From Methylomonas sp. (GTDB lineage Bacteria > Pseudomonadota > Gammaproteobacteria > Methylococcales > Methylomonadaceae), in assembly GCA_026988155.1 (NCBI GenBank), contig JALSLW010000081.1:1-38629 (forward strand): a DNA stretch of 38,629 bases. The letters are read 5' to 3'. The notes beneath the pieces are model-generated. The model ran no database searches. It had not been told where the DNA came from and worked only from the letters and a program-made list of their open reading frames with translations. The translations under genes and the position numbers were made by a program. This document shows, piece after piece, positions 7,433 to 31,532 of the stretch. Position 1 is the first letter of the stretch. Every line of letters starts with the position of its first letter.

Positions 7433-7442
7433 TATATTTCCC

Positions 7443-10556: not shown

Positions 10557-10700
10557 CTATCAGGCATAACAGATATGAGCTACTTCAATCTACTGTATAA
10601 AAAACGTAAGGACTTTATGCATCTTTCAAAAACTTTTTTAGTTTAGAAAATATCGAGTTCCTAACAGGAGCTTACTTTATAACAATTAATTAGGAATACT

Positions 10701-13700: not shown

Positions 13701-13857
13701 CTTAGGAGCGAGAATTTAATAATTTCCGGGTTTTGGCTTGTCTTTTGCCTCCACAGAAGCACTCATAAAACCGTTGTGTAGCTTGCTATGCGCCCATTTT
13801 ATTAGCAGTCAAAATTCTTCGCCAAACTTTCGGAAGCAATTAAGGCCTCGCTTCCTA
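13701..13857. mobile_element. Diverged MITE-like element at the ureG 3' end
   Basis: The ends are imperfect inverted repeats (TAGGAGCGAGAATTTAATAA at 13703 onward; reverse complement of the right end TAGGAAGCGAGGCCTTAATT). The 157-bp length equals that of the MITE copies, and the centre shares GCTTGTCTTTT, GTAGCTTGCTATGC and AATTCT-CGCC blocks in the same order. A 5-bp TAGCA occurs at 13696-13700 and 13858-13862, a possible target duplication. The right end supplies the present ureG stop codon. No transposase is encoded. Confidence 0.6.
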
Positions 13858-14463: not shown

Positions 14464-14474
14464 TAATTTCTTCT

Positions 14475-15149: not shown

Positions 15150-15570
15150 GTGTGTGATAAGCACCTGCTTCTGGCTCAAATGGCAACATGGCTTGTTCCA
15201 CTTTTAGTCCTAAACCTTCCAGCATATGGTCTAAAACATGATCGCTGAGATAGCGCAGTTCGCCTTGTAAAATTTGCAAAGAAATATGACGATTGCCTAA
15301 GTGATAACAAGCTTTGGAAAACTTTAAACTATCACTATTACGCATAACAGAAACGGCTTCATTAGCAGCTTGAATTTGTACGTTAACACCATCAGTTCCA
15401 GTTAAAACCACACCTGAACGAAACATTTGCCCTCTTGGAAAAAATAGCCCCACCTCTTTGCCATTATCGGTGGTTGCAGAAAATCGGCTTTTTTGGCGTA
15501 ATTCAAAAGGAATGGTTAAGGTGTCATCAATTGATACGTCAGCCGTTACTAATTCAGTTAATTTAATCAT
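15139..15570 (-). CDS. ureE: Urease accessory nickel chaperone UreE
   Basis: UreE is the nickel metallochaperone that hands Ni(II) to the maturation complex. The 143-residue protein has the N-terminal peptide-binding domain and a C-terminal ferredoxin-like metal domain with LGNRHISLQI, where the conserved histidine binds nickel. The tail is a short HTHAH rather than the long polyhistidine run of Klebsiella, which still gives three histidines for metal binding. The gene follows ureC by two bases and overlaps ureF. Confidence 0.94.
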   Translation of the reverse strand: MIKLTELVTADVSIDDTLTIPFELRQKSRFSATTDNGKEVGLFFPRGQMFRSGVVLTGTDGVNVQIQAANEAVSVMRNSDSLKFSKACYHLGNRHISLQILQGELRYLSDHVLDHMLEGLGLKVEQAMLPFEPEAGAYHTHAH

Positions 15571-15572
15571 GC

Positions 15573-17276
15573 TTAAAATAAAAAATAGCGTTGAGACATG
15601 GGTAAACTTTCAGCAGGTTCACAAGTAAGTGAAACGCCATCGGCTTTTACGGTATATAACTGCGGATCTACCTCTATATTCGGCTGATAAAAATTATGCA
15701 GCATATCTTTTTTACCTATATTTCGAGTATTAGAGACAACGCCTATTTTTGAATTGAGTTTTATTTTCGTAGGTAAATTATCGTCCATTGCGGCTTTCGG
15801 TAAAAATAGCATGGAGGTGGCATGACACGCACTACCAAAAGAGCCAAACATAGAGCGATAATGTACGGGCTGTGGCGTGGGAATTGAAGCATTAGGGTCG
15901 CCCATCGGCGCTGCTGCAATCATACCGCCTTTTAAAATCAGGCTGGGTTTAACGCCAAAAAAAGCGGGATCCCATAACACTAAATCAGCCATTTTCCCTT
16001 TTTCGATTGAACCTACTTCATGTGAAATACCGTGGCTAATGGCTGGATTTATGGTGTATTTTGCAATATAGCGCTTAATCCGAAAATTATCATTTTGGTT
16101 TGAATCTTCTGGAAGACTGCCGCGTTGCACTTTCATTTTATGGGCTGTTTGCCAGGTGCGAATAATCACTTCACCCACTCGGCCCATGGCTTGAGAATCA
16201 GAGGCGATCATTGAAAATGCACCCAGATCATGCAAAATATCTTCAGCGGCAATAGTTTCTCTGCGAATGCGTGATTCTGCAAAAGCAACATCTTCAGCAA
16301 TATTGGGATCAAGGTGATGACATACCATCAGCATATCTAAATGCTCATCGACTGTATTAACCGTATAAGGTCGAGTTGGGTTAGTGGAAGAGGGCAGTAC
16401 ATTTGCGAAACCACAGGCTTTGATAATATCAGGCGCATGTCCGCCACCCGCACCTTCGGTATGGTAAGTATGAATTGTTCGGTCTTTAAAAGCAGCCAGA
16501 GTATCTTCCACAAAACCTGATTCATTTAAAGTGTCTGTATGAATTGCTACTTGTACATCGTAGCGTTCAGCGACAGATAAACAGCAATCAATTGACGCTG
16601 GTGTTGTTCCCCAGTCTTCATGCAGTTTTAAGCCCATTGCCCCAGCTCTGACTTGTTCATCTAATGCAGCAGGCAAACTGGCATTGCCTTTTCCCATCAA
16701 ACCAAAATTCATGGGGAAAGAATCTAACGATTGCAACATACGATGAAGATTCCAAGGGCCAGGTGTACAGGTGGTTGCATTGGTACCTGTTGCTGGCCCT
16801 GTGCCACCGCCTAGCATGGTAGTGACACCAGACATTAAGGCTTCTTCGATTTGCTGTGGGCAAATAAAGTGGATATGAGCATCTATACCGCCAGCTGTTA
16901 AAATTTTACCTTCACCTGCGATAATTTCTGTCCCAGGACCAATAATAATATCTACCTTTTGCTGGGTATCTGGATTGCCGGCTTTACCTATCGCAAAAAT
17001 TCTACCGTCTTTAATTCCTACATCGGCTTTAATAATGCCCCAGTGATCAATTATTAAAGCATTAGTAATCACCAAATCCATCGCCACAGTTGAATCACAT
17101 TGGCTTTGCCCCATACCATCACGAATAACTTTGCCACCACCAAATTTAACTTCATCTCCATAAACTGTGCGGTCTTCTTCAACTTCAAGAAATAATTCGG
17201 TATCCGCTAAACGAACGCGATCACCTACCGTAGGGCCAAACATTTCGGCATAAGCCTGACGACTGGTTTTGCTCAT
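15573..17276 (-). CDS. ureC: Urease alpha (catalytic) subunit
   Basis: UreC hydrolyses urea to ammonia and carbamate at a dinickel site. The 567-residue protein keeps every active-site residue with Klebsiella numbering: H134 and H136, carbamylated K217 (GLKLHEDWG), H219, H246, H272, H320 on the mobile flap (VCHH, with C319) and D360. The substitution-free motif set indicates an active enzyme. ureB overlaps its start by four bases (ATGA). It is part of the separate-subunit (UreA/B/C) architecture of most proteobacteria. Confidence 0.98.
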
Positions 17277-17590
17277 GCTTGATCTCCTAAGCTGCCCATA
17301 ATATCTTGACGAAAACCATAGACATGACGTAAACCTGTATAAGGTACCAACTGTATTTTACGCTCTTGCCCAGGCTCAAAACGTATTGCTGTACCTGCTG
17401 CAATATCAGGGCGATAGCCTCGTGTTTTTTCTCGGTCAAAATTAAGGGCAGGATTGGTTTCAAAAAAATGATAATGAGAGCCTACTTGAATGGGGCGGTC
17501 ACCTGTATTGGCGACAGTCACAGTGATGGGGCTAAGATTGGCATTAAGTTCTATCTCGCCTGTAGCGACTAAAATTTCACCTGGGATCAT
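17273..17590 (-). CDS. ureB: Urease beta subunit
   Basis: This small structural subunit (105 residues) packs against the catalytic subunit in the (UreABC)3 trimer. The sequence has the usual beta-sandwich signatures: MIPGEI at the start, [19 protein letters not shown] (about residues 29-47) and RFEPG and GFRQDIMG near the end. It starts 9 bases after ureA and overlaps ureC by four bases, so the three subunits are coupled in translation. Confidence 0.97.
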
Positions 17591-17599
17591 CTGACACCT

Positions 17600-17902
17600 C
17601 TATTCAATTGGGTCATGAATGGTTACCAGTTTGGTACCATCAGGAAAGGTAGCTTCTACTTGAACATCGGGCAGCATTTCGCATATTCCATCCATTACAT
17701 CTTCACGATTTAACAGAGTGCGACCATATTCCATTAATTGAGCGACTGTCTGTCCATCACGTGCGCCTTCCATCACTGCCGCCGAGATAAAAGCGATAGC
17801 TTCAGGGTGATTTAATTTAAGCCCCCGAGCCCTTCGCCTTTCAGCCAATAGGCCCGCAGTAAAAATCAATAATTTATCTTTTTCACGTGGAGTGAGTTGC
17901 AT
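17600..17902 (-). CDS. ureA: Urease gamma subunit
   Basis: The 100-residue gamma subunit begins [12 protein letters not shown] and carries [15 protein letters not shown] (about residues 23-37) and the [20 protein letters not shown]-type tail (here [14 protein letters not shown]), all hallmarks of UreA. It completes the trimeric urease core with UreB and UreC. It starts 8 bases downstream of ureD. Confidence 0.97.
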
Positions 17903-17910
17903 AATCTACC

Positions 17911-18738
17911 TCAGGTTGCCCAAATTCTCGGTGTATAAGGTTGTTGTTGTGCTATATCTTGCCGAATAACGGAGCGTACTTTTTCAAAAAAATCACGAAC
18001 AATATTTGATTTATCGGCACTGGCTCTACAAATCAATAAATCATCTATTAAGGTAACACCTTGTCTTGGTGTGTCAGCAATTAATAATCTGACCGCTTCT
18101 AAATTAGCCTGGTTGGCACCAACGGCAAACAGGGTGCCACAGCTAGAATAGCCCTTTAGCCCCCAGCGAGCAAAAAAAGCGTTAGTATCCAATTGCATTT
18201 TCTCTATAAATAAAGGCATTGCATCACGAAAAATGTGCCAATTCAATAGTGCTTCACCGTGGTTGAAACTTTCATTGGCGGCTGGTCTGCCTAGTACTAA
18301 TATTTCCCAGCCTATAAATCGGGCGTTTGTCGCTAAATCAACACGCACATCTGAAACTAATTTTGCACCCTCAAATACAATGGTTTCTTGCGGCAGCCAT
18401 TCTAGTGTGGCATTTTCCTTGATTTTTAAAGATACGGTTTGGAGTGCCTGTTGTCCTGCGCTGCGATAAAATTTTCCCGCACCTGGTGTGGTGATTAATG
18501 CTTTAGCCTCATCTTCGACTTGTATATCAATTGATAGTTGGTCTCCAGCAACGATACCGCCAGGTGGGTGCAATAAATACACATGGCATACCCCGCCTTC
18601 TGGATAAAATGGGCGCTGTACAGTTAATGGTCCTTTATGGACACGCTTAGAAAGTATTGTTTTGGTTCCTGAATACGAAAACCCCAGCTTTAGTTCAGCT
18701 TTCCAGCCTACATTATTTGTGTTTAACTCATCACTCAT
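17911..18738 (-). CDS. ureD: Urease accessory protein UreD (UreH)
   Basis: UreD binds the apoenzyme directly and provides a nickel tunnel from UreG/UreF. The 275-residue protein shows the family blocks GPLTVQRPFYPEGGVCHVYL (about residues 36-55), HPPGGIVAGDQL, TTPGAGKFYRS (about 88-98) and WLPQETIVFEGA (about 115-126). It is the first gene of the urease half of the locus. A 147-base gap with a nested hairpin separates it from urtE, the only sizeable gap between uptake and urease genes. Confidence 0.95.
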   Translation of the reverse strand: MSDELNTNNVGWKAELKLGFSYSGTKTILSKRVHKGPLTVQRPFYPEGGVCHVYLLHPPGGIVAGDQLSIDIQVEDEAKALITTPGAGKFYRSAGQQALQTVSLKIKENATLEWLPQETIVFEGAKLVSDVRVDLATNARFIGWEILVLGRPAANESFNHGEALLNWHIFRDAMPLFIEKMQLDTNAFFARWGLKGYSSCGTLFAVGANQANLEAVRLLIADTPRQGVTLIDDLLICRASADKSNIVRDFFEKVRSVIRQDIAQQQPYTPRIWAT

Positions 18739-18884: not shown

Positions 18885-19661
18885 TCATACTGTTAAATAT
18901 TGTTTAACCATCTCATCGGTTAATTCTGGCATTTTCCCAACTGCCACATTCCGTCCACGCTCTAAAATACAGAACTGATCCGCCACTCTACGCGCAAAAG
19001 GCAGTTTTTGTTCTACTAACAACACGGTAACCCCCAATTCCTTATTAATTATTGAAATAGCTTCATGTATCATCCCTTTGGGTTGTTTAACCTCTGGATC
19101 AGGAATACCTTTGCTCCGATTTAATCGCATAATAACATCACCAATTTCACTGACAATATTGGGTTGAATACCCTCGGTCGGCTCATCTAGAATCAGTAAT
19201 TTTGGATTTAATACCAAAGCGCGTCCAATTGCTAACTGTTGTTGCTGTCCACCTGATAAATCACCGCCCCGACGATTAAGCATTTGCTTTAATACCGGGA
19301 ATATTTCATATATCTGTTCAGGCACTTGTTTAATGCCTTTTTTACTGACCGCTCGTAAACCTATTTTCAGGTTTTCTTCGACAGTCAACAAAGGAAAAAT
19401 TTCTCGTCCCTGTGGCACATACCCAATCCCCAGTTCCGCCCGTGCTTCTGCCTTAGCATGAGTAATATCCTGCCCATCCATTTTGATTATGCCTTCACGG
19501 ACGGGGATTAACCCCATTATACTTTTTAATAAGGTGGTTTTGCCTACCCCATTGCGGCCCATTAAACATAGGCAGGAACCTTCGGGAATATCTAAATTTA
19601 AATCCCATAGCGTATGGCTTTCGCCGTAATATTGATCTATCGCTGAAACTGTTAGCATCAT
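18885..19661 (-). CDS. urtE: Urea ABC transporter ATP-binding protein UrtE
   Basis: One of the two ATPases that power high-affinity urea import. The 258-residue protein has Walker A GRNGVGKTT (residues 35-43), the signature LSGGQQQQLAIG, Walker B LLILDEPTEG, and the H-loop region VLLVEQK. The pattern is that of LivF-like branched-chain ATPases. An insertion around RSKGIPDPEVKQPKGM between Walker B and the H-loop is typical of UrtE. It overlaps urtD by four bases (ATGA). Confidence 0.94.
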   Translation of the reverse strand: MMLTVSAIDQYYGESHTLWDLNLDIPEGSCLCLMGRNGVGKTTLLKSIMGLIPVREGIIKMDGQDITHAKAEARAELGIGYVPQGREIFPLLTVEENLKIGLRAVSKKGIKQVPEQIYEIFPVLKQMLNRRGGDLSGGQQQQLAIGRALVLNPKLLILDEPTEGIQPNIVSEIGDVIMRLNRSKGIPDPEVKQPKGMIHEAISIINKELGVTVLLVEQKLPFARRVADQFCILERGRNVAVGKMPELTDEMVKQYLTV

Positions 19662-20488
19662 TCCCCCAAATACACTTGAATGACGCGAGGGTCATTTTGC
19701 ACTTCATCCATTGTGCCTTCCATTAAAACTGACCCCTCATGCAATACTGTCACCGTTTTAGCAATGGAACGGACAAAAGCCATATCATGCTCGACAACTA
19801 CAACAGAATGCTTGCCTTGCAGTGATAATAACAGTTCTGCGGTGCGGTCAATTTCCTGATGTGTCATGCCTGCTACTGGCTCATCCACTAGCATTACACG
19901 CGGTTCTTGCATTAATAACATGCCAATTTCCAGCCATTGTTTTTGTCCATGAGAAAGAATGCCCGCAGGTTGAAAACGAAGTTCAGTCATCCCAATAATT
20001 TCAAGCACTTCATCAATGCGGTCTCTCTGTTCACCATTTAAGCTGGCAAATAAAGTAACCCAGGCACCTTTATCGGCTTTTAAGGAAAGTTCTAAATTTT
20101 CAAATACGGTTAATTGATCAAATACACTGGGTTTTTGAAATTTTCTACAAATGCCTGCCTGTGCTATTTCTGCCTCATTCATTTGCAATAAATCTATGGT
20201 TTGTCCGAAAAACACAGAGCCGCTATCTGGCCGTGTTTTACCTGTAATTACGTCCATCAAAGTGGTTTTCCCAGCTCCATTAGGACCAATTAAACAGCGT
20301 AATTCTCCATCATTGATATAAAGGGATAAATTATTTAATGCCTTAAAGCCATCAAAGCTGACGCTTACATCTTCCATATATAAGACGGTACCATGGCTAA
20401 CATCCACATTGCCTTTAATAACAGGGTGGGTGTTTACAAAATTAAAGGTTTGATAGCGATTAAATCGGGTCTTTGCAGGATTACTCAT
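19658..20488 (-). CDS. urtD: Urea ABC transporter ATP-binding protein UrtD
   Basis: This is the second ATPase subunit (276 residues), of the LivG type. Walker A GPNGAGKTT is at residues 68-76, the signature is LSHGQKQWLEIG, Walker B is VMLVDEPVAG, and the switch histidine is in VVVEHDMAFV. A 36-residue N-terminal leader precedes the nucleotide-binding domain, as in other UrtD. The start overlaps the urtC end by eight bases, so translation is coupled. Confidence 0.94.
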   Translation of the reverse strand: MSNPAKTRFNRYQTFNFVNTHPVIKGNVDVSHGTVLYMEDVSVSFDGFKALNNLSLYINDGELRCLIGPNGAGKTTLMDVITGKTRPDSGSVFFGQTIDLLQMNEAEIAQAGICRKFQKPSVFDQLTVFENLELSLKADKGAWVTLFASLNGEQRDRIDEVLEIIGMTELRFQPAGILSHGQKQWLEIGMLLMQEPRVMLVDEPVAGMTHQEIDRTAELLLSLQGKHSVVVVEHDMAFVRSIAKTVTVLHEGSVLMEGTMDEVQNDPRVIQVYLGE

Positions 20489-21575
20489 GGTTTATCTCTC
20501 CAATTTTTCGTTTCCATAAACCGACTAATCCGTCAGGCATATAAATTGTCACCAATATAAATACTGCACCTAAAGTAAACAGCCAGACTTCGGGCAATAC
20601 CCCTGTTAAAACCGTTTTACCATAGTTGACTAAAATGGCGCCGATAATAGCACCGTACAAACTCCCCCGCCCACCAACAGCCACCCAAACTACAATTTCT
20701 AATGAGACTAGCGGTGAGAATTCACTGGGATTGATAATGCCGACTTGAGGAACATATAATGCACCTGCGAGTCCAGCCAATATAGCTGAAAAGACAAAAA
20801 TCCAAAGTTTATACATTTCTACTCGATAACCTAAAAAACGCACTCTTGATTCTTGATCACGAATGGCGGTAACGACGCGACCCAACCGTGTTTTGACTAA
20901 CCAGCGACAGACCATAAACGCAGCAATTAAAATCATCCCTGAGCTCATTAATAACAGCGCTCTTACAGTATCAGACTGCAAGCTATAGCCAACAATGTCT
21001 TTAAAATCAGTCAGACCATTATTGCCACCAAAGCCCATTTCGTTTCTAAAAAATGCTAGCATTAGGGCATAAGTGAGTGCTTGGCTGATAATTGACAAAT
21101 AAACCCCCGTGACTCTTGAGCGAAAAGTTAGCCAGCCAAATACAAACGCTAGTATTGCAGGAGCAACCATCACCATCAACAGGGCAAATGGAAAAGATTC
21201 AAAACCGCTCCAATACCACGGCAATTCCTTCCAGTTTAAAAATACCATAAAATCAGGTAAATCTGGATTGCCATAAACACCCCGATCACCAATCTGGCGC
21301 ATCAGATACATACCCATGGCATAGCCGCCCAAGGCAAAAAAAGCACCTTGTCCTAATACTAAAATACCACAATATCCCCAGACCAAATCCAGCGACAAAG
21401 CCAATAAAGCAAAGGTTAAATATTTGCCAATTAAGGAGACCGTATAAGCTGAAAAGTAAAATACTGACCCTGCTGAAAAAATTAGATTGCACAAAGGGAT
21501 AATCAGGGTAACGGCTGCTAATATCAGTAGTACAACGCCACTTTCTTTATCATTTGAAAAATATTTCAGTAACAT
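20481..21575 (-). CDS. urtC: Urea ABC transporter permease UrtC
   Basis: This is the LivM-like inner-membrane permease that forms the urea channel with UrtB. It has about ten hydrophobic helices and the EAA-like stretch in GLAGALYVP and GGRGSLYGAIIGA. I chose the ATG at 21575 (364 residues), one base after the urtB stop, because GGAG lies about 7 bases before it. An in-frame ATG at 21617 would add 14 basic residues that lie wholly within urtB. Confidence 0.93.
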   Translation of the reverse strand: MLLKYFSNDKESGVVLLILAAVTLIIPLCNLIFSAGSVFYFSAYTVSLIGKYLTFALLALSLDLVWGYCGILVLGQGAFFALGGYAMGMYLMRQIGDRGVYGNPDLPDFMVFLNWKELPWYWSGFESFPFALLMVMVAPAILAFVFGWLTFRSRVTGVYLSIISQALTYALMLAFFRNEMGFGGNNGLTDFKDIVGYSLQSDTVRALLLMSSGMILIAAFMVCRWLVKTRLGRVVTAIRDQESRVRFLGYRVEMYKLWIFVFSAILAGLAGALYVPQVGIINPSEFSPLVSLEIVVWVAVGGRGSLYGAIIGAILVNYGKTVLTGVLPEVWLFTLGAVFILVTIYMPDGLVGLWKRKIGEINHE

Positions 21576-21576
21576 T

Positions 21577-23244
21577 TTAAGACTCCGCCGCACGGCCTTT
21601 TTGTGGAAATAAACCACGCGGACGTTTCTGAATAAATAAAATAATAAAGATCAACACTAAAATCTTTGCCAATACTGCGCCTGCGAAGGGTTCTAATACT
21701 TTGTTAGCAATGCCTAAAGAAAACCCTGCCACCAATGTCCCCCATAAATTACCGACCCCGCCAAAGACCACCACCATAAAACAATCGACAATATAAGACT
21801 GTCCCAAATTTGGTCCGACATTGGTAATTTGGCTTAACGCTACTCCTGCTACACCCGCTATTCCAGAGCCTAAACCAAAGGTCATTGCATCTACACGGGC
21901 TGTTGGAATCCCCATAGCTTTTGCCATATTTCGGTTTTGCGATACGGCGCGTACTTCTAGCCCAAGTCGGGTTCGTTTAAGGATTTGCAATAAAAAGGTA
22001 AACACTAATAAGCAAAAAACCAAGATATATAAACGATTCCAGGTTAATGATAAAAAGTCATTAATTTGCCAGGAACCACTCATAAATTCTGGGGTGATAA
22101 CACTTCTGTTTAAGGGAGAAAAAATAGAACGTACTGCTTGCTGTAAAACCAAACTGACACCAAAAGTGGCTAATAAGGTTTCTAATGGCCGTCCATATAA
22201 ATGGCGGATAATGCCTCTTTCAATGCCGATGCCCACCAGTCCAGACACCATAAAGGCAGCGGGTATTGATAAGAGTAGTGATAAAGCAATATGATTAGGC
22301 ATAATTTGCTGCATCACATAAGTTGTGTATGCGCCTAGCATCATCATTTCACCGTGCGCCATATTAATTACGCCCATTACCCCAAAGGTAATGGCTAATC
22401 CTATGGCGGCTAATACTAATACTGCACCTAAGCTTAAACCAAAAAATATGGTTTCTGTTACATGATAAAACTGTAAACGAGACTGTATTTTTACTAAGGC
22501 TGATTTAGCCTGTTTGCGAATTTCTGCATCAGGCTCTATAAACTGACCTTCACTGTTTTTTTCCTGTAATGCCTGCAAGCGATTAACTGCCTTTAAGCTG
22601 GTTTTCTGTTTTAAGGTCTCAATGCCTTTTAAACGAATTGTTCTGTCTGAGCTGTTCAGGCTATCAAGTGCAAAAATAAGCTGTAATTTATCTAATACAT
22701 CGCTATCTTTTTCCGTTTCAGCCAATGTTTTTAATATTTTTAAACTGGCTGGATTGATTGATTTGCTCAGCATTTTTACTGCTTGCAATCTTTGGTCTGG
22801 ATCTGCTGAATTTAGTCGTATTTCTGCTATTATGTTTCGTATTTTTGAGCGTAAACGGTTATTGATCCTGATTTTTTTTATTACTGAGTTATCTACTAAG
22901 CCAATATTTTTTCCAGACTCAGCAAGCTCAATGGAAAATTTCTCTGCTTTTTTTTCTGCAATGACAATTTGACCATTTTCTCTATCTTCAAATAATTTAC
23001 CATCGACTAAAGCTTGTAAGATAACAATTTTTTGTGGGTTATCAAATTGTACTAACTGTTCAATCGCTGTACCCTTTGCAGATAAAGATCTTACTTTTAA
23101 TTTTGATACGGCAGTGGAAAACGTTATTTTTTCCTGTTCTATCTGATCATCCTGAGCAATTTGAGCATTCGAAGTGCTGATAAAACTGCATAGCATTAGA
23201 ATTAGGAAAACAATATGTACTGGGTAAGTCACCCGATCTTTCAT
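21577..23244 (-). CDS. urtB: Urea ABC transporter permease UrtB
   Basis: This permease (555 residues) has a signal peptide (residues about 9-27), a soluble periplasmic region of about 230 residues with HEAT-like helical repeats (QRLQAVKMLSKSINPASLKIL, then a similar block), and a LivH-like membrane domain from about residue 265 (GLSLGAVLVLAAIGLAITFGV). This N-terminal extension is normal for UrtB and separates it from amino-acid LivH. It is 123 bases downstream of urtA; that gap holds two hairpins. Confidence 0.94.
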   Translation of the reverse strand: MKDRVTYPVHIVFLILMLCSFISTSNAQIAQDDQIEQEKITFSTAVSKLKVRSLSAKGTAIEQLVQFDNPQKIVILQALVDGKLFEDRENGQIVIAEKKAEKFSIELAESGKNIGLVDNSVIKKIRINNRLRSKIRNIIAEIRLNSADPDQRLQAVKMLSKSINPASLKILKTLAETEKDSDVLDKLQLIFALDSLNSSDRTIRLKGIETLKQKTSLKAVNRLQALQEKNSEGQFIEPDAEIRKQAKSALVKIQSRLQFYHVTETIFFGLSLGAVLVLAAIGLAITFGVMGVINMAHGEMMMLGAYTTYVMQQIMPNHIALSLLLSIPAAFMVSGLVGIGIERGIIRHLYGRPLETLLATFGVSLVLQQAVRSIFSPLNRSVITPEFMSGSWQINDFLSLTWNRLYILVFCLLVFTFLLQILKRTRLGLEVRAVSQNRNMAKAMGIPTARVDAMTFGLGSGIAGVAGVALSQITNVGPNLGQSYIVDCFMVVVFGGVGNLWGTLVAGFSLGIANKVLEPFAGAVLAKILVLIFIILFIQKRPRGLFPQKGRAAES

Positions 23245-23286
23245 AATATATCCAATAGGAATGAAATAAACCTAGAAAAAACTCTC

Positions 23287-23338
23287 GTTCCCACGCAGAA
23301 CATGGGAACAAGAATAATCCCCCTTTATTAAAGAGGGG
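23287..23338. repeat. Two short hairpins in the urtA-urtB gap
   Basis: GTTCCCA and TGGGAAC (23287-23309) form one hairpin. CCCC-TTT and AAAG-A-GGGG (about 23319-23338) form another. Both look like short dispersed palindromes seen in many proteobacterial intergenic regions. In the operon mRNA they would lie directly 3' of urtA and could protect the binding-protein message, giving more UrtA than UrtBCDE. This effect is inferred. Confidence 0.55.
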
Positions 23339-23367
23339 AAGTTAAAAGTAATAATTGCTTGTTCTAA

Positions 23368-24666
23368 TTAATAATTTTGTCCAGAACACTTTTTAGTATT
23401 GGTATTGTAATTGCCGCAGTTAATGGGAGCAGTCCAATCAGCAATAATAGGCTTACTTTCTGGTAGAAAATCTGACCAGGCATCGCCTTTAACTAAGGTA
23501 TTTGTTTGCCATACTGTAAAAAGCTGCCCATCTTCTTGAATCTCACCAATCAGAACAGGTTTGCTCAAGTGATGATTAGGTAGCATTTGTGCCAATCCGC
23601 CAGTCAGGTTAGGAAATTTAATCCCAATCATTGCTTTCTGCACCGCGTTAGATTCAGTTGTACCTGCTTTTTCTACCGCTTTTACCCACATATTAAAGCC
23701 AATATAATGTGCTTCCATAGGGTCATTCGTTACACGTTTAGGATCTTTAGTATATGCATGCCATTGTTTAATAAAGGCCACATTTTTAGTGCTATCTTCT
23801 GACATAAAATAATTCCAGGCAGCCATGTGGCCCACTAAAGGTTTAGTGTCCATGCCAGAAAGCTCTTCTTCACCTACAGAAAATGCAACAACTGGAATAT
23901 CTTCAGCAGAAATGCCCTGATTACCTAACTCTTTATAGAAAGGAATATTGGCATCGCCATTGATAGTCGAAACAACCGCTGTTTTCTTGCCAGCTGAACC
24001 AAACTTCTTAATATCGGCAACAATACTTTGCCAATCGGAATGGCCAAAAGGGGTGTAATTAATCATGATGTCTTTGGCATCAACCCCTTTTGACTTTAAA
24101 TAGGCTTCCAGGATTTTATTAGTAGTGCGCGGATAAACATAATCTGTCCCAGCTAACACCCAGCGTTTCACTTTAATGTCATTCATCAAGTAATTAATCG
24201 CAGGGATGGCCTGTTGATTTGGCGCGGCACCAGTATAAAAGACGTTTTTAGAAGATTCTTCGCCTTCATATTGCACTGGGTAAAACAAGATGCTGTTCAA
24301 CTCTTCAATCACAGGCAGTACTGATTTACGGGAAACAGACGTCCAACAACCGAAGATTGAAGCGACTTTTTCTTTAGTAATCAATTCACGAGCTTTTTCC
24401 GCAAATAAAGGCCAGTTTGAGGCTGGGTCAACCACTACAGGTTCTAGTTTTTTACCTAACAGCCCGCCCTTTTTATTTTGTTCAGCAATCAGCATCAACA
24501 TAGTATCTTTTAATGTTGTTTCGCTGATTGCCATGGTGCCAGAAAGTGAATGCAAAATACCAACTTTAATGGTCTCCTCTGCACTAACTGCTGCGGTTGT
24601 TCCAGTCATTAAAACCAGTGCGGAAAGGACGCTGGTTAATCCTGTTTTTCGTAGAAATTTTTTCAT
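23368..24666 (-). CDS. urtA: Urea ABC transporter substrate-binding protein UrtA
   Basis: UrtA is the periplasmic urea receptor that feeds the UrtBCDE importer. The 432-residue precursor has a signal peptide (residues 1-29, cleavage near VSA/EE). The mature part begins IKVGILHSLSGTMAISE, followed by GCWTSVSRKSVLPV, FYPVQYEGEESS and AAWNYF, characteristic of the urea/short-amide receptor family (UrtA/FmdD) rather than leucine receptors. It begins 22 bases after the porin gene, whose transcript it shares. Confidence 0.96.
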   Translation of the reverse strand: MKKFLRKTGLTSVLSALVLMTGTTAAVSAEETIKVGILHSLSGTMAISETTLKDTMLMLIAEQNKKGGLLGKKLEPVVVDPASNWPLFAEKARELITKEKVASIFGCWTSVSRKSVLPVIEELNSILFYPVQYEGEESSKNVFYTGAAPNQQAIPAINYLMNDIKVKRWVLAGTDYVYPRTTNKILEAYLKSKGVDAKDIMINYTPFGHSDWQSIVADIKKFGSAGKKTAVVSTINGDANIPFYKELGNQGISAEDIPVVAFSVGEEELSGMDTKPLVGHMAAWNYFMSEDSTKNVAFIKQWHAYTKDPKRVTNDPMEAHYIGFNMWVKAVEKAGTTESNAVQKAMIGIKFPNLTGGLAQMLPNHHLSKPVLIGEIQEDGQLFTVWQTNTLVKGDAWSDFLPESKPIIADWTAPINCGNYNTNTKKCSGQNY

Positions 24667-24688: not shown

Positions 24689-25921
24689 TTAGATTTGCAG
24701 TTGAAAACCGATGGTAATTGAATGAACTTTATCTCCATCTGCATCAGAACTGTAATCAAGCCCTTTAGTAATGCGATCGCCATAATGCCAATTTAGTGAA
24801 ACCAATGCATTATGGCCATCAATAACATAGTTCAGCCCAGCTTCCCAAGCTGCGCGATCTGAACTGTCTTCTGGCAAAGTATTGGTATAGCGAATAAAAG
24901 GCTGGAACTGACCGATGGCTATTTTTTGCGGGAATAAATACATCGCGCTGATGTCGTATGCATCGCCTTCAAACATATTCCAGCCTGGTGCTCCGCTATC
25001 TCTGCTCGCCTGGCTATAGCCATTTGAAACTGCATAGTTTTTGTATTCGCCACTAATGGTAACAACACCGCCATTAGCCAGCACTTTTTCCATCAATATA
25101 TCAACAGCTGTACCACGGAAATCACCCTTGTCAAACCGTGTGCCCGCACCATCTTCTTGATATTGATTAGAGACACCTAAAGTTAGAATATCGCCACCTG
25201 CACCATAATAAGTGCCTGAGGTGTAATAGCCCGGATTTTTTTCTACATCCCAGAAGTTATAGGAAACACGTTGGGCGTATAAAAGATTATCATCTTCATT
25301 TGCACTGCCTCTTAAACCATTAAAAATGCCAAAGGCATATTGTAAGCGTCCTTCCAGCACAGAACCCCATAAGGTGACACCATCATCACGTCCATAAATA
25401 CCGGCTTGATCTGGGCCTATACCGGCAGGACCGCCAAAATCAGCTGAGTCGAAAGGTGTGCCCGTACTAAAAATATTGTAGACAGCGCTATAGAATGGGC
25501 CATTCATTTCACGGCGCTCAGCAGGGACCAGCATACGCCCAACCCATAGATTAATGTACGGGGTAAATTCAAACTTAGCGATGGCGTCTAATATTTTCAT
25601 GTCACCGCCATTGGTGCCGCAAAACTGACATTCAGTGTTAAATTCTAATTTAATATATTCATGTATTTGAGCATTCAAATACAGTCTCATATTATCGACA
25701 CTAAAGTCGTTACTCCATTTAGAACCGGCTGCAGCCTCTTCTGTTGCAGTAAAACTGGTTCTAAATCCTGCCCCAATACTTACCCATTTGGTATCATCAA
25801 TTTTAAAGGTTGCTCCTGCATTAGAAACTGCTGAATATCCTAACATTGCTGTTGCGAGGGCTACTGCTGACAAGGCTTTAGCATACCGTTTTACAGCATA
25901 TTTATTGCTAGCTACGGCCAT
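24689..25921 (-). CDS. Outer-membrane porin, FmdC-like, first gene of the urea locus
   Basis: The 410-residue protein has a signal peptide (residues 1-35, cleavage near SNA/GA) and a beta-barrel of alternating aromatic/polar strands rich in glycine and asparagine, ending in an amphipathic strand ITIGFQLQI. It belongs to the phosphate-selective porin O/P-like group. In Methylophilus methylotrophus the porin-like FmdC precedes the UrtA/B/C-like FmdDEF genes for short amides and urea. The same order here suggests that this porin admits urea across the outer membrane. A CxxC pair (C98, C101) is unusual in a porin and might form a disulfide. Its gene leads the long operon. Confidence 0.88.
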   Translation of the reverse strand: MAVASNKYAVKRYAKALSAVALATAMLGYSAVSNAGATFKIDDTKWVSIGAGFRTSFTATEEAAAGSKWSNDFSVDNMRLYLNAQIHEYIKLEFNTECQFCGTNGGDMKILDAIAKFEFTPYINLWVGRMLVPAERREMNGPFYSAVYNIFSTGTPFDSADFGGPAGIGPDQAGIYGRDDGVTLWGSVLEGRLQYAFGIFNGLRGSANEDDNLLYAQRVSYNFWDVEKNPGYYTSGTYYGAGGDILTLGVSNQYQEDGAGTRFDKGDFRGTAVDILMEKVLANGGVVTISGEYKNYAVSNGYSQASRDSGAPGWNMFEGDAYDISAMYLFPQKIAIGQFQPFIRYTNTLPEDSSDRAAWEAGLNYVIDGHNALVSLNWHYGDRITKGLDYSSDADGDKVHSITIGFQLQI

Positions 25922-25973
25922 AATAAACTCCTGATTTAATGTAAATTATTTTTAGATTTCGGCGGATTGAAAC

Positions 25974-26003
25974 AATAGAGATTATTGACCTTTATTTTGT
26001 CAA
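25974..26003 (-). promoter_or_regulatory. Candidate promoter of the porin-urt-ure locus
   Basis: On the minus strand TTGACA (26003-25998) is followed after 18 bases by TCTATT (25979-25974). The first box is perfect, the second weak, and the spacer long, which is typical of promoters needing an activator. I saw no GG-N10-GC sigma-54 element in the gap. The leader to the ATG is about 45 bases with CAGGAG near the start codon. Confidence 0.4.
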
Positions 26004-26056
26004 ACCGCCTTAAAACAAGGATATTGTTAAATCTACTATCACCGATGTTGCAGGCT

Positions 26057-26070
26057 TGCGACAATTATTG
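26057..26070. promoter_or_regulatory. Candidate regulator site upstream of the urea locus
   Basis: TGCGACAATTATTG lies about 54 bases before the porin -35 box and shares TGCGACAATT with the candidate site before regB (minus strand, 3138-3147). It fits a half-site of the RegA/PrrA type. The match is short and could arise by chance. Confidence 0.25.
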
Positions 26071-26219
26071 TGTTTTGTAGCGTTTTTCACAATGCGTCAA
26101 ATGACTAATCAGTTAAATGACGTATAACATTATTAATTGCTATGCTATATAGTTGATATTTTTAAAAAAATGAGTGATTTTTAATGTGCTATTACAATAG
26201 TTTGACTGAGGTAATTAAA

Positions 26220-26945
26220 ATGCTTGGCGTATTGTTTCTTAGTATTTTTTTAACGGCATGTGCAGAAGTGGAAAAAAAACCACTGGCTTTTGAAACTAGT
26301 CAAGTCGATTCAATGGCTTTTCAATTTGAGAATAGTATTCGTTTTAATGAAATTTCTTTACCAGTTGAAGAAATAAGCCGGGAAGTAATAAAAAATTTAC
26401 AGCAATGGGGGTATGTTTTTAAATCTGAAGACTACACTCATGACTTAAAAATTTCAATTGGCTCAATAAACCGTAGCTCAACTCCCTTTGGTCTTTCTTT
26501 TAGCGCAGGAAATTCAAATCCTCGCTCACTAAATTTTCAAAAATCATCCACCTTTCCTTTAACGTGTTCATTAATGCCGAAAGGCCAGTTTCATCGTGCT
26601 GAGCTGGTTATGACTGTTATGGCTGACAGTTATGTTATTCTTTTCAATAAACCAAAAGGACAGGACAAAGCGATTGAGATGCTAACGGATGATATCAGCA
26701 CCGTTTGTTATAATCTGCTTAGCAGTTTAAACATTAAAGCGAAGGAGTTAATATCAGTAGAAAAAAGCACCCAACCTAGATGGGTTCCTGAGATTCGCAT
26801 TGAAGTTGAAAATAAGGATAAATCAGGCAATCAAAATATTAAAGAAACCAGATATATTAATAACAAAAAAGAAGAAAGTAGACGTATTATTATTCACAAT
26901 CAAGGAAACCCTGTTATTTTTAAATTTGGTTCTGATAGAAAATAG
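26220..26945 (+). CDS. Putative lipoprotein of unknown function
   Basis: From the ATG at 26220 the protein has a signal peptide with lipobox LTAC (FLSIFLTACAEV) and then about 225 residues with no family that I recognise. I prefer this start to the in-frame ATG at 26184 because GAGG lies 9 bases before it and because it places the hydrophobic signal at the very N terminus. The C-terminal part is unusually rich in K, N and E (KKEESRRIIIHNQ). It is divergent from the porin and precedes the sensor gene by 311 bases. A link to urea use is only positional. Confidence 0.6.
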   Translation: MLGVLFLSIFLTACAEVEKKPLAFETSQVDSMAFQFENSIRFNEISLPVEEISREVIKNLQQWGYVFKSEDYTHDLKISIGSINRSSTPFGLSFSAGNSNPRSLNFQKSSTFPLTCSLMPKGQFHRAELVMTVMADSYVILFNKPKGQDKAIEMLTDDISTVCYNLLSSLNIKAKELISVEKSTQPRWVPEIRIEVENKDKSGNQNIKETRYINNKKEESRRIIIHNQGNPVIFKFGSDRK

Positions 26946-27256: not shown

Positions 27257-30200
27257 ATGTCTTCCACTGTCCGTCAAAGCATTTCAAAAACACGCAGGGA
27301 TTACAATTCCTGGGTAGCCAATGAAACATTAGAAGATTATGCTTTACGGTTTGCACCACGTCGATTTAGAAAATGGTCTGAATTTCAGGTAGCCAATACA
27401 GCTTTTGGTTCAACCTCCTTTTTAGTATTAGAAGCCATTGGCGGTTTCTTATCAGTAAATTACGGCTTCACCAATGCATTTTGGGCCATTTGCATTGTCG
27501 GGCTGATTATTTTTATTATTAGCTTTCCCATCAGCTATTACGCAGCCCGTTACAATATTGATATTGACCTGTTGACTCGCAGTGCAGGCTTCGGTTATTT
27601 CGGCTCCACTATTACTTCTTTAATTTACGCCTTTTTCACCTTTACTTTATTTGCACTTGAAGCCTCAATTATGTCCAAGGCTATCGAATTGTATTTTCAA
27701 GTACCTATTGCATTTGCCCATTTTATTAGCGCCATTATTGTTGTGCCATTTGTAACTTTCGGCATTACTACCATTAGCCGAATGCAGCTGTGGACGCAGC
27801 CTTTATGGCTAATTTTATTGTTTATCCCCTATTATGCGGTATTCACAAAAGAACCCGAAGCATTACTGACTTTAAAAGCCTATTATGGAATTGCCAGCAG
27901 TGGGCAAGATTTTAACTGGCTGCTTTTTGGCAGTGCAGCCACAGTTGCTTTTTCAATGGTTGCTCAAATAGGAGAGCAAGTCGATTTTCTGCGCTTTATG
28001 CCAGAAAAGAAAAAAATCAATCATTTTAAATGGTGGGCAGCAACAATTATTGCGGGTCCCGGCTGGATTGTTTTTGGAGTAATTCGACAGCTTGGCGGTG
28101 CGTTACTTGCTCACCTTGCCATTCAGCAAGGTATTGCTATAGATCATGCGCATGAACCCACGCAAATGTACTTAATTGCATATACCATGCTGATTGATAA
28201 CACCGACCTTGCACTGGCTATTACAACCTTATTTGTGATTATATCTCAACTAAAAATTAATGTGACCAATGCTTATGCTGGCTCACTGGCCTGGTCTAAT
28301 TTTTTTTCCCGTATAACTCATACTCACCCAGGGCGTGTTATCTGGCTTTTTTTTAATGTCTCTATTGCCTTGCTACTGATGGAGTTTGGTGTCTTTGGCG
28401 CATTGGAAAAGGTGCTTGGTTTATTCTCCAACATCAGTATTGCATGGATCAGTGCTGTTTCAGCCGACCTTATGATTAATAAACCTTTAGGTTTAAGTCC
28501 AAAAATCATTGAATTTAAACGGGCCTATTTGCCCGATTTGAACCCAGTTGGTCTTGTTTCAACCTTTTTTGCATCATTGATTTCCATCTTAGCCTACTTA
28601 GGTTTATTTGGTGAATATCCTCAAGCCTTTTCTGCTTTTATTGCTTTAGGGTTAACATTTATTTTAGTCCCCAGCATCGGGTACTTTACCAGTTACCGCC
28701 ATTATCTGGCTCGTGCACGCCACTATAAACATGATATATCAACTAGACAATGCTGTATTTGCAAAAATCACTTTGAACATGAAGATACAGCCTATTGCCC
28801 CGCTTATCAGGATAGCATCTGTTCATTGTGCTGCACATTAGATTCACGCTGTTTAGATAGCTGTAAAAAAGGCGCACGGTTAGAAGATTATTTTAATGAT
28901 TTCGCAAGCTCTTATCTTCCTTCGTTTATCTCATTAAGCTCAAGAATACGATTCCTACGGTTCGTACTTTTATTTGCTTTTCTAAGCACTTTGACCAGTG
29001 TTTTTATAGGGATAATCTATTATCAAGACTTTTTGACAGCACAGAACAGCCCACAGTCATTTAATCTTCTGTTTGATAACTTCGTTAAAGTTTATGCGGC
29101 ATTATTGATATTTATTGGGCTATGCAGCTGGTGGCTAATATTAATTCATGAAAGTCGCCAATTAGCGCATGAAGAAACCACCAAACAGACCCAATTATTA
29201 TTGAAAGAAATTGAAGAGCACAAAATTACTGATGAAAAATATCAGCAGGCCATTTTAACAGCGGATAATGCTAACAGTGCCAAAAGCCGGTTTCTCAGTA
29301 ATATGAGCCATGAAATCCGCACCCCTCTAAATTGCATTGTCGGCTATTCCCATATTTTGCATAATGACCCGTCAATCCCTGATCACAGAAGAGAAGCAGT
29401 TGAAATATTAAACCGCAGCAGCGAGCACTTATCATCATTGATTGAAGATATTTTAGACATTGCCGGAATTGAAGAACGTAAATTTGAGCTCCGGTACGCT
29501 GCGCTGGATTTGCCAGCACTAATTGAGCATTTAGTCAGCAGTTTTAAATCCCAAGCTGAAGATAAGGGACTTATATTTCGTTGTCATATACTGGATTCCT
29601 TGCCCCAAACAGTGCGTGGCGATGAAAAACGCATTCGGCAAGTATTAATAAACCTGTTAAGCAATGCAATTAAATTTACCAATACAGGCGAAATAATTTT
29701 TCGTATTGGCTTCCGCAGTGATGTAGCTACATTTCAAGTGATTGACAGTGGCGAGGGTATTTCCGGCCATAATCTTAAAGATATTTTCCAGCCTTTCACA
29801 CGTTTAAGCAAAGCAACAGGAAATGCTGTTGCCGGGAGCGGTTTGGGGTTAACTATTTGTAAAATCATTACCGAACTGATGGGAGGTGAGATTACAGTCA
29901 AAAGTATTGAAAAGAAAGGCTCTACCTTTACTGTACGCTTTTTGCTTGCCAGTTTAAGTAACAAGACCAATATTGTCGCTGAAAAGAATATTGTCGGTTT
30001 TCAGGAAAATAGTAAAAACATACTGATTGTTGATGACCAATATGAACACCGCATACTTATTGCAACCATACTCGAACCTTTAGGGTTTTGTGTAAAGCAG
30101 GCAGATTCGGGAGAAACCTGTATAGCAATGCTTCCTAATTTTATGCCTGATCTTATTTTAATGGACTTATCAATGGAGGGCATTAACGGCATAGAAACAT

Positions 30201-30625
30201 CTCAATATCTTCGTCAAAAAGGCTATTCAATGCCTATTGTTGTACTAAGCGCCAACGCTTATCCATCAGACCAGAAAGCTGCTTTGGATGCAGGATGTGA
30301 TGATTTTCTTGCAAAACCATTACAAGTTACTGATCTATTAAATAAACTTGCACTGCAATTATCAATAAACTGGATATATGATGGCAATATAAAAGAGAAG
30401 ATGCGGCCTGAACAAAATAATGATTTTACCAGGCCTCCCCCCAATATTATTAAGCAATTAATGGCATTCGTACAAATAGGTGACCTATTGGGATTGAAGC
30501 ATCAATTGAATGATTTGATTATGAATGAGCCCCGGTATAAAAGCTTTACTCAACGTATCAAATCCTTAGCCAATGAATTTCGCATTGCAGAGATTAAAAA
30601 ACTCTTAAATAAAGCTGATGAATAA
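27257..30625 (+). CDS. NCS1-permease/hybrid histidine kinase fusion sensor
   Basis: The 1122-residue protein joins a transporter to a kinase. Residues about 1-490 look like an NCS1 (purine-cytosine/allantoin-type) permease with about 12 membrane helices (starting FAPRRFRKWSEF). Residues 499-536 are a cysteine cluster (CCIC, C514, C522, CC525-526, C532, C536), probably metal binding. Two further membrane helices (about 565-590 and 610-635) lead by a coiled coil to the kinase: H-box SNMSHEIRTPLN (H685), N-box LINLLSNAIKF, G-boxes DSGEGIS and GSGLGLTI. A receiver follows with D970 (LILMDLSMEG) and AKPL. No Hpt domain is present. It likely senses a small nitrogen compound by binding or transport. 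The ligand is not known; urea is inferred from the neighbouring locus. Confidence 0.88.
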   Translation: MSSTVRQSISKTRRDYNSWVANETLEDYALRFAPRRFRKWSEFQVANTAFGSTSFLVLEAIGGFLSVNYGFTNAFWAICIVGLIIFIISFPISYYAARYNIDIDLLTRSAGFGYFGSTITSLIYAFFTFTLFALEASIMSKAIELYFQVPIAFAHFISAIIVVPFVTFGITTISRMQLWTQPLWLILLFIPYYAVFTKEPEALLTLKAYYGIASSGQDFNWLLFGSAATVAFSMVAQIGEQVDFLRFMPEKKKINHFKWWAATIIAGPGWIVFGVIRQLGGALLAHLAIQQGIAIDHAHEPTQMYLIAYTMLIDNTDLALAITTLFVIISQLKINVTNAYAGSLAWSNFFSRITHTHPGRVIWLFFNVSIALLLMEFGVFGALEKVLGLFSNISIAWISAVSADLMINKPLGLSPKIIEFKRAYLPDLNPVGLVSTFFASLISILAYLGLFGEYPQAFSAFIALGLTFILVPSIGYFTSYRHYLARARHYKHDISTRQCCICKNHFEHEDTAYCPAYQDSICSLCCTLDSRCLDSCKKGARLEDYFNDFASSYLPSFISLSSRIRFLRFVLLFAFLSTLTSVFIGIIYYQDFLTAQNSPQSFNLLFDNFVKVYAALLIFIGLCSWWLILIHESRQLAHEETTKQTQLLLKEIEEHKITDEKYQQAILTADNANSAKSRFLSNMSHEIRTPLNCIVGYSHILHNDPSIPDHRREAVEILNRSSEHLSSLIEDILDIAGIEERKFELRYAALDLPALIEHLVSSFKSQAEDKGLIFRCHILDSLPQTVRGDEKRIRQVLINLLSNAIKFTNTGEIIFRIGFRSDVATFQVIDSGEGISGHNLKDIFQPFTRLSKATGNAVAGSGLGLTICKIITELMGGEITVKSIEKKGSTFTVRFLLASLSNKTNIVAEKNIVGFQENSKNILIVDDQYEHRILIATILEPLGFCVKQADSGETCIAMLPNFMPDLILMDLSMEGINGIETSQYLRQKGYSMPIVVLSANAYPSDQKAALDAGCDDFLAKPLQVTDLLNKLALQLSINWIYDGNIKEKMRPEQNNDFTRPPPNIIKQLMAFVQIGDLLGLKHQLNDLIMNEPRYKSFTQRIKSLANEFRIAEIKKLLNKADE

Positions 30626-31532
30626 AAAAATAAATGAAACCGTTTTAATTGTTGATGATACACCTGACAATTTAGCAGTACTTTCAGATATGCTGTCAGA
30701 ATATGGCTATCGTGTATTAGTTGCCACTGATGGCCTGTCGGCTCTTGAACAAATTAATCATTTGCAGCCGGATATTATTCTGCTAGATATTATTATGCCG
30801 GGCATTGATGGGTTTGAAACCTGTCATAGGCTTAAAGAGAGTCCGCTTACCAAAGATATTCCTATTATTTTCATGACTGGTTTGAGTGAGTTGGATGATT
30901 TATTAAAAGGTTTTAAAGAAGGGGCTGTTGACTATATAGTAAAACCTATCCGGCCAGCAGAAGTTATTGCCAGAATAGAGGCTCAATTATCCCAGAAACA
31001 CAACACCCAGCGCGTTGAACAAACTTTAACCCATACTGGTTTTTCTGCCATAGCTTTCAATAACTCTGGAAGCATCACTTGGCTTTCTGCTTCAGCCGAG
31101 AAAATACTTTTAGACTGCTGCCCAATTGATAAAACTTATAAGGCTACAGCTCAAAGCGACCGGTCTTTGCCCCAAGTCTTGCTTGAGCAAATCATACCTA
31201 TAATTAAAGGTCAGCAAGTTTTGTTGACCGACGTACAATTAGGGAGCGAGTACATGGGTAAAATAGTGCCAGGATCAATAGATGATGAATATATGCTGCT
31301 CATTCAGAAAAGTAGCAAAGAGTGGGACTTAGCATCACTAAAAGTTTCTTTTGGCTTAACCGCAAGAGAAGCGGAGATTCTAATGTGGGTTTCACGGGGT
31401 AAAACCAATAAAGAGGTTGGGTTGATTTTGGGTACTAGTCCCAGAACAGTTAACAAACACCTCGAACATATTTTTGAAAAACTCGGGGTTCCAACGAGGA
31501 CAGCAGCCGTTGCAAGAGTTTTAAAAAACTAG
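30618..31532 (+). CDS. Response regulator with LuxR-type DNA-binding domain
   Basis: The 304-residue regulator overlaps the sensor gene by eight bases and is its likely partner. The receiver (residues about 8-122) has IVDDTPDN, the phosphoacceptor D57 in IILLDIIMPG, FMTG and the lysine of YIVKPIRP. A PAS-like middle part (about 140-220, SAIAFNNSGSITWLSASAEK) precedes a LuxR/NarL helix-turn-helix (about 237-295, LTAREAEILMWVSRGKTNKE, then SPRTVNKHL). It should control transcription. The nearest candidate target is the divergent porin-urt-ure operon. Confidence 0.9.
   Translation: MNKKINETVLIVDDTPDNLAVLSDMLSEYGYRVLVATDGLSALEQINHLQPDIILLDIIMPGIDGFETCHRLKESPLTKDIPIIFMTGLSELDDLLKGFKEGAVDYIVKPIRPAEVIARIEAQLSQKHNTQRVEQTLTHTGFSAIAFNNSGSITWLSASAEKILLDCCPIDKTYKATAQSDRSLPQVLLEQIIPIIKGQQVLLTDVQLGSEYMGKIVPGSIDDEYMLLIQKSSKEWDLASLKVSFGLTAREAEILMWVSRGKTNKEVGLILGTSPRTVNKHLEHIFEKLGVPTRTAAVARVLKN

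Follow-up and report, generated by a model that had tools for sequence, protein, structure and literature searches.

The window analysed here is the whole 38,629-nucleotide stretch of contig JALSLW010000081.1 (Methylomonas sp., assembly GCA_026988155.1, positions 1 to 38,629). It harbors a two-component system, consisting of a hybrid histidine kinase and a LuxR-type response regulator, that is divergent from a porin-urt-ure operon. The membrane part of the sensor probably descends from an NCS1-type permease that carried urea or short-chain amides, and the system would activate the genes for the use of urea nitrogen. The architecture and fold of the sensor, its linkage to urea and amide genes, and a conserved palindrome that keeps a fixed spacing to a promoter and is co-distributed with the system are apparent from sequence comparison and a structural model. 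The host genome comprises 3.40 Mb, and its nearest named relatives are Methylococcales (e.g., Methylomonas, Methylobacter, Methylotuvimicrobium).

Architecture and fold of the sensor

The two genes are organized as follows:
27257-30625 (+), sensor gene, 1122 amino acids: NCS1-like core, Cys cluster, two helices and hybrid histidine kinase (open reading frame list, Pfam, AlphaFold model)
27344-28699 (+), NCS1-like membrane core, taken as the part that aligns with CodB (residues 30-481)
28751-28864 (+), Cys cluster, residues 499-536, with eight invariant Cys and low model confidence
28934-29233 (+), two long helices leading into the kinase, residues 560-659, from the model
29279-29476 (+), HisKA (Pfam); SHEIRTP from residue 684 gives His685
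29618-29947 (+), HATPase_c (Pfam)
30020-30349 (+), receiver of the hybrid kinase (Pfam); LILMD from residue 966 gives Asp970
30618-31532 (+), response regulator gene, 304 amino acids: receiver 30642-30980, variable middle part, LuxR-type helix-turn-helix (HTH) 31356-31514

In the kinase half, Pfam places HisKA at residues 675-740, HATPase_c at 788-897 and Response_reg at 922-1031. The sequence retains what an active kinase and receiver require, with SHEIRTP starting at 684, the N and G boxes at 799, 830 and 860, and LILMDLSM at 966. The regulator, whose reading frame overlaps that of the sensor by 8 bp, contains Response_reg (residues 9-121, with IILLD from 53 giving Asp57) and GerE (247-299). 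The pair has what defines a two-component system: HisKA, N and G boxes, receivers with their Asp, and a receiver-HTH partner of the NarL/FixJ type. The HTH is the best conserved part of the regulator, with a mean column identity of 0.84 vs. 0.42 for the middle part. The locus is not a product of chance, since most full-length relatives in the methanotroph loci listed show 58-85% identity.

The membrane half is harder to place. The N-terminal 560 or 641 residues have no Pfam match below E 0.3, and sequence searches of solved structures with the sensor domain, two profiles and one relative retrieved no NCS1 chain; one of them matched cytochromes and another a Cys-rich protein (E 1.4), both over the Cys part. 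With no Pfam match and no useful PDB sequence match, the assignment to NCS1 is therefore not decidable from the sensor sequence alone. An AlphaFold2 model of residues 1-660, built from an alignment of 42 sequences, has a mean predicted local distance difference test of 74.6 and a predicted template modelling score of 0.73, being weak for residues 1-37 and the Cys part. CodB and Mhp1 chains occupy Foldseek ranks 1-5. Structural alignment with VIA gives Z 31.0 for CodB (391 residues, 3.8 A) and 26.5, 26.1 and 24.1 for the Mhp1 entries, the best other family scoring 24.7 (Nramp-type NRAT). Among LeuT-fold proteins, the sensor fold is thus closest to CodB and Mhp1 by both methods; it scores higher with NCS1 than with SLC5 chains, and there is no SLC5 (SSF) match in Pfam. 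The NCS1 profile PF02133 is passed by one of 18 family members scanned, a kinase-free relative at 42% identity (31.8 bits vs. a cut-off of 23.5). Because the model matches CodB and Mhp1 while the other 17 members miss PF02133, the predicted core has the NCS1 fold and represents a distant sequence group.

Behind the core, C499, C502, C514, C522, C525, C526, C532 and C536 are invariant in the 42 sequences, and the model contains two further helices (residues 560-595 and 599-659). No STAC or PAS domain was found, the presence of a STAC model in Pfam being unchecked. The earlier note on this DNA, made from the sequence alone, had described an NCS1-like permease, a cysteine cluster, two extra helices, a histidine kinase and a receiver in one 1122-residue chain, followed by an overlapping LuxR-type regulator, with both genes divergent from porin-urtABCDE-ureDABCEFG. 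This description is borne out by the modelled fold and the kinase-free homologue for the permease, by the alignment for the cysteines, by the model for the helices, by Pfam and the reading frames for the remainder of the pair, and by profile matches for the opposite-strand genes, that of the porin lying under its cut-off.

The putative binding pocket departs from that of CodB. Trp108 and Phe204 of CodB are described as the aromatic pair that sandwiches the substrate and are said to be conserved across the NCS1 family. They align with Leu131 and Met234 of the sensor (MAFFT with CodB and AllW, the transmembrane helix (TM) 3 part also by hhalign; sequence alignment only). All 42 sequences keep Gly51, at the break in TM1, and Gln237, Glu240 and Asp243 of TM6. 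At the Na2 cation site the TM1 Gly is kept and the TM8 hydroxyls are not, in an alignment possibly off by a residue or two. A smaller, non-aromatic pocket, as this weak alignment suggests, would fit urea or formamide better than a nucleobase.

Candidate operator and co-distribution

The regulatory site and its surroundings comprise:
26095-26122, 28-bp palindromic candidate operator, CGTCATTTAACTGATTAGTCATTTGACG as read on the - strand
26064-26092 (-), predicted promoter of the porin-urt operon: -35 TTGTGA at 26092-26087, 17 bp, -10 AATAAT at 26069-26064
24689-25921 (-), porin, matching the ExtI model under its cut-off
18885-24666 (-), urtA, B, C, D and E, with UrtA-E models over cut-off
13855-18738 (-), ureD, A, B, C, E, F and G, by profile matches
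26184-26945 (+), putative lipoprotein, 253 amino acids, conserved beside the sensor

Alignment of porin upstream regions reveals one block conserved across genera, CGTCAWWTRACTGATNAGTCAWWTGACG. In the window this palindrome adjoins the -35/-10 elements of the porin-urt promoter and lies within the region 25922-26219, which the earlier note had named for a binding test; it is the sole match at ≤3 mismatches in the host genome. The spacing to the promoter is fixed: in 40 of 60 distinct sites (≤4 mismatches) the palindrome is followed by 2 nt, TTGT[GC]N, 17-18 bp and a -10 hexamer, a pattern that shuffled flanks yield at 0.03% per side. With a start point about 7 nt past the -10 element, the center of the palindrome would be near -51, a position common for activators. 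For sigma-54 and NtrC, considered as controls of the porin promoter and set aside, no good site is present in 48 upstream regions (best 9/12 positions of the consensus).

Sensor matches occur in 137 of 237 family genomes, and sequence identity separates 123 orthologues from 14 others. G085, G089, G233 and G234 are not among the matches listed; G089 was placed with the orthologues and the other three were not. The 28-bp motif is present in 101 of the 237 genomes (none for the reversed-pattern control), and its distribution follows that of the orthologue (both 99, motif only 2, sensor only 24, neither 112). The same is seen for ureC: both 118, sensor only 5 (in genomes 70-94% complete), ureC only 7 and neither 107. 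Within 13 mixed genera, 88 genomes carry sensor and ureC vs. 57 expected. All 22 genomes with FmdA and all 27 with AH_C have a sensor orthologue. Of the seven urease genomes without a sensor, six also have no site (G050, G051, G185, G187, G188, G189); G200 has one. The p-values for co-occurrence (1e-51 and 1e-30) overstate the case, given the relatedness of the genomes and the frequent linkage of the genes.

Most sites stand before the transport genes. Among the matches listed, 73 of 89 sites are 1.43-2.12 kb upstream of a UrtA-type gene, i.e., before the porin or fmdA; nine of the other 16 are on contigs without a listed UrtA and seven are farther off. Four of these 16 (G165, G167, G173, G174) are 214-308 bp upstream of the sensor match. 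In genomes with a distant sensor, the site accompanies urt (G160, G164, G020, G056, G192); in M. buryatense the site is at 71431 and the sensor at 1541415. In seven methanotroph loci (L069, L083, L090, L094, L097, L103, L105) the site is found between fmdA and the lipoprotein and sensor genes. In Methylovulum loci a palindrome occurs shortly upstream of the sensor itself (L043 9763, L095 9671, L102 9743).

The putative lipoprotein gene, absent from the earlier note, sits between the porin promoter and the sensor, in the same intergenic region as the candidate operator. Its cluster is present in 60 of 97 sequences around sensors, and the protein has no Pfam or NCBIfam match.

Gene neighborhoods and the wider family

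A survey of neighborhoods in other genomes was the test that the earlier note had set for the link to urea, and its outcome is positive. Among the named loci, which are the best 80 of 208 candidates, 60 carry urt, urease, formamidase, allophanate hydrolase or the urt porin within the stretch covered. The same holds for 41 of the 47 loci that extend at least 9 kb beyond the sensor on its upstream side. A LuxR regulator is called in 69 of these 80 loci. Some loci are the same genomes (L040/G160, L090/L163, L097/L164, L069/G044), so the counts by named locus and by genome overlap. The targets come in three combinations: urt with urease, a urt-like ABC transporter with formamidase, and allophanate hydrolase with BiuH. 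Of the ligands in the earlier note, urea or a related nitrogen compound, the neighbors point to urea, formamide, other short amides and biuret; no gene for allantoin, hydantoin or pyrimidine use is among the identified neighbors, many unlabelled ones not having been scanned.

Variants of this arrangement are found in several genera. The M. buryatense genome carries a pair of sensors separated by about 10 kb. One is the orthologue, which is distant from urt; the other, a paralogue with 51-52% identity in the membrane part, has its own regulator and faces urtA-like..E-fmdA-fmdB. In Methylovulum and others the neighbors include allophanate hydrolase, biuret amidohydrolase (over the NCBIfam cut-off) and a membrane-protein-like family of 516-529 amino acids. 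The latter (L043 7911-9464, L076 2378-3967, L095 7842-9392, L102 7962-9512) is a candidate biuret carrier; the member scanned (L076) has no Pfam or NCBIfam match.

The sensor extends well beyond methanotrophs. In even draws, relatives occur in 18 of 369 genomes of the class and 27 of 200 of the phylum, the host genome included, and in 525 of 72,556 plasmid records, 342 of them from Klebsiella and 78 from Sinorhizobium. All eight annotated plasmid stretches examined carry formamidase or urease plus ABC/urt genes or AmiS/UreI: ABC/urt with formamidase in Burkholderia, Paraburkholderia, Methylobacterium, Klebsiella and Chelatococcus, urease with urt in Methylovirgula and Methylosinus, and formamidase with AmiS/UreI in Paracoccus. 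The sensor is divergent from these genes in seven of the eight, being downstream of urease on the same strand in Methylovirgula. In two further plasmid records, which carry no annotation, tblastn found urtA in the one from Sinorhizobium and not in the one from Acinetobacter. In this A. baumannii locus (L210) a kinase-free homologue (548 residues, 6147-7793) is divergent from the sensor/regulator pair (7959-12379), an arrangement also seen in L136; in L210 a three-mismatch palindrome lies between them. In the one Klebsiella plasmid examined (K. pneumoniae, NZ_OM489427.1, L207 3906-14261) the genes for the sensor and a LuxR-type regulator point away from urtABCDE-formamidase, and a palindrome is located at 9876. 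Reading-frame calls in the G+C-rich loci L136 and L147 are partly wrong, and L136 was re-read from the list of open reading frames.

At distant loci the palindrome has a single form, TACGTCAWWTGACGTA; the 28-bp form resembles an overlapping pair of these elements. The single palindromes were read by eye from a crude inverted-repeat ranking, and scans for them were then compared with Markov-resampled sequence. Eleven non-orthologue loci have a sensor with urt, fmd or porin genes (L109, L133, L136-L140, L142, L143, L160, L161), and in ten of them the single palindrome (≤2 mismatches) occurs no more than about 400 bp from the called start of the sensor. It is absent from all 17 sensor loci without a labelled urt, fmd or porin gene (L134, L135, L141, L144-L146, L149-L159) and from L148, the locus of a kinase-free homologue. 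The scan gave 14 places in 0.61 Mb vs. 2 in 3.06 Mb of resampled sequence. At the same threshold, 15 of 29 further Pseudomonadota loci have the single palindrome (16 places in 0.29 Mb vs. 2 in 2.9 Mb of resampled sequence). In 13 of them it precedes the sensor by at most about 400 bp, in L206 it is just before ureD, and in L209 it is about 100 bp before urtA. In the host genome the strict single form has no place at ≤1 mismatch, and the reversed control has 2+2. On these sequences, the single palindrome is a putative operator common to many of the related sensors, not to all.

The membrane module also occurs without a kinase or with other outputs. P0002 (540 residues, passing PF02133) is on the same strand as, and adjoins, urease genes and a NicO gene, and P0003 (559 residues) is divergent from a sensor, directly before formamidase. 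Fused outputs are PAS-GGDEF-EAL, PAS/GAF-GGDEF-EAL, kinases that have one or two receivers and in some cases an HPt, and kinases without a receiver. Judging from the GGDEF-EAL fusions (L145 7349-11020, L149 2618-7315, L152 6224-10846, L154 7741-10953, L157 7366-11025), the NCS1-Cys-helix module may feed cyclic di-GMP signaling too. No urea gene is among the neighbors of these members, which were only partly labelled, and their ligand may for this reason differ. On the broadest reading, an NCS1-type urea/amide permease, the eight-Cys cluster and the two helices would form a phylum-wide, so far unmodelled module that serves as the input of histidine kinases and GGDEF-EAL proteins. Urea or amides could then be read as both a transcriptional and a cyclic di-GMP signal, the kinase branch controlling urea and formamide genes through the single palindrome from methanotrophs to Klebsiella plasmids. 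Because of the doubt about the GGDEF-EAL ligand, belief and reservation are evenly balanced for this reading.

Proposed mechanism, alternatives and known systems

Urea would enter the periplasm through the porin and bind the NCS1-like core. For the porin model matched here, ExtI, the nearest relative is reported to be FmdC, the amide/urea porin of Methylophilus. A conformational change would pass through the Cys cluster and the two extra helices to the kinase, which would phosphorylate the LuxR-type regulator either directly from His685 or by a relay over the kinase's receiver and an HPt whose gene lies elsewhere. The regulator, as the presumed binder of the palindrome at 26095-26122 just upstream of the -35 element, would then activate, rather than repress, the porin-urt-ure operon.

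Several observations weigh against this scheme. The sensor itself has no match to PF02133, and Pfam finds no Hpt in it (the wider relatives L153 and L155 do have an HPt). Six loci with ≥9 kb upstream have no urea gene near the sensor (L046, L061, L062, L073, L101, L110), and no LuxR regulator is called beside it in L043 and L102. The site is missing at ≤3 mismatches from 24 of the 123 sensor genomes, and the two motif genomes without a sensor, G130 and G200, are metagenome-assembled genomes 73-78% complete. The single palindrome (≤2 mismatches) is absent from L139, from L147, where a urease gene is called nearby, and from 14 of the 29 wider loci. These 14 include Methylobacterium, Methylosinus and Paracoccus, and Alphaproteobacteria in which formamidase or urease genes neighbor the sensor are among them. 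The genome counts are also not independent, because the genomes are related.

The nature of the signal leaves room for other readings. The NCS1 part may at the same time be a working transporter, the signal arising from flux and not from binding alone. Histidine uptake is reported for CbrA, in the part of that literature consulted, and kinase-free homologues exist, which speaks for such a transceptor; the aromatic substrate pair and the TM8 hydroxyls do not align, though the alignment is weak there, and the operon already has an ABC importer, so that this bifunctional form is possible and rather doubtful. Alternatively, the system may drive the urea genes while its membrane part reads ammonium or nitrogen status, pH or membrane potential. 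The Cys cluster could indeed read redox or a metal, and some orthologues are far from urea genes, but the varied targets (urease, formamidase, biuret enzymes) are united by small amide substrates, kinase-free homologues stand with urease and formamidase, and the porin promoter has no good sigma-54 site, all of which make a different signal unlikely. Allantoin, hydantoin or a pyrimidine as the ligand, with the urea genes switched on as the downstream pathway, would agree with CodB and Mhp1 as the nearest folds. Since the nucleobase sandwich is missing in the sequence alignment and no such catabolic genes are among the neighbors identified, this is very improbable.

A different regulator, one that moves together with the cassette or with urt, could also bind the palindrome, as the sensor genomes devoid of the motif might indicate. 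Such a regulator is improbable given that six of the seven urease genomes without a sensor lack the motif as well, that a related palindrome is found beside sensor/regulator pairs in other classes, and that the HTH is what the regulator conserves best. Finally, the M. buryatense orthologue or paralogue might be the published kinase MxaY (METBUDRAFT_1818), in which case the family would serve the lanthanide switch. MxaY likewise has a response-regulator gene downstream, according to the available part of its description; that part mentions no "transmembrane", "symporter" or transporter domain for MxaY. Both M. buryatense sensors neighbor formamidase/ABC genes, a transhydrogenase and others, not mxa, and a sensor orthologue is missing from 114 of the 237 family genomes, leaving this identity barely credible.

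A urea/amide-responsive system of the kind preferred here would, by analogy, work like the transporter kinases CrbS (of CrbS/CrbR) and CbrA and stand outside the SLC5/STAC family. In CrbS/CrbR and RpuS/RpuR, too, a LeuT-fold transporter is joined to a hybrid kinase that ends in a receiver, the partner is a LuxR-type regulator and the targets belong to substrate utilization; CrbR acts at an inverted repeat in its target promoters (passages of PMC9100948, PMC5715377). They differ in being SLC5-STAC proteins, whereas the present sensor has an NCS1-like core, an eight-Cys cluster with two helices, urea/amide targets and another operator. CbrA of Pseudomonas uses a transporter fold as the sensory part of a kinase, but is an SLC5/STAC protein that binds histidine (excerpts of PMC13022988). 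In Kuenenia a nitrogen-source transporter is fused to a histidine kinase, in that case an Amt/Rh domain for ammonium (PMC5764959, in part). CodB and Mhp1 share the fold of the membrane core, but are plain transporters with an aromatic sandwich that is not kept in the sensor. Also comparable is the Klebsiella plasmid UTS (urt-amiF): in the one plasmid examined, the sensor/regulator pair and urtABCDE-formamidase diverge from an intergenic region that contains a palindrome. Gene names suggest that these are the UTS genes of PMC13060141, which describes a transport gene set and in whose text "histidine kinase" and "response regulator" do not occur and "regulator" occurs once.

Searches of open-licence PubMed Central, outside which most subscription journals fall, brought up neither a fusion of NCS1 with a kinase nor a comparable kinase that senses urea. 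Transporter-kinase fusions as such are known; one that combines an NCS1-type core with the Cys-helix connector, an operator of its own and urea/amide targets did not come up in these searches. The database records examined name such sensors and regulators "ATP-binding protein", "response regulator", "hybrid sensor histidine kinase" or "ArcB", or leave them without a name, and because the names are generic or absent, the transporter-shaped sensory part goes unnoticed. If the proposal is correct, the system would provide a membrane receptor for urea or amides with a defined candidate operator and promoter, and would add one more transporter fold to SLC5 and Amt as those that have become sensors of kinases. 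It would also supply the probable regulator for a urea-transport gene set on Klebsiella plasmids.

Two minor observations concern the remainder of the window. UrtE (18885-19661) matches its model only over residues 3-186 of 258 (profile 1-183 of 230), and its C-terminal part looks divergent. An HpcH/HpaI-type lyase gene and malate-CoA ligase (9603-12784; beta subunit over the equivalog cut-off) adjoin the urease genes and are probably serine-cycle genes.

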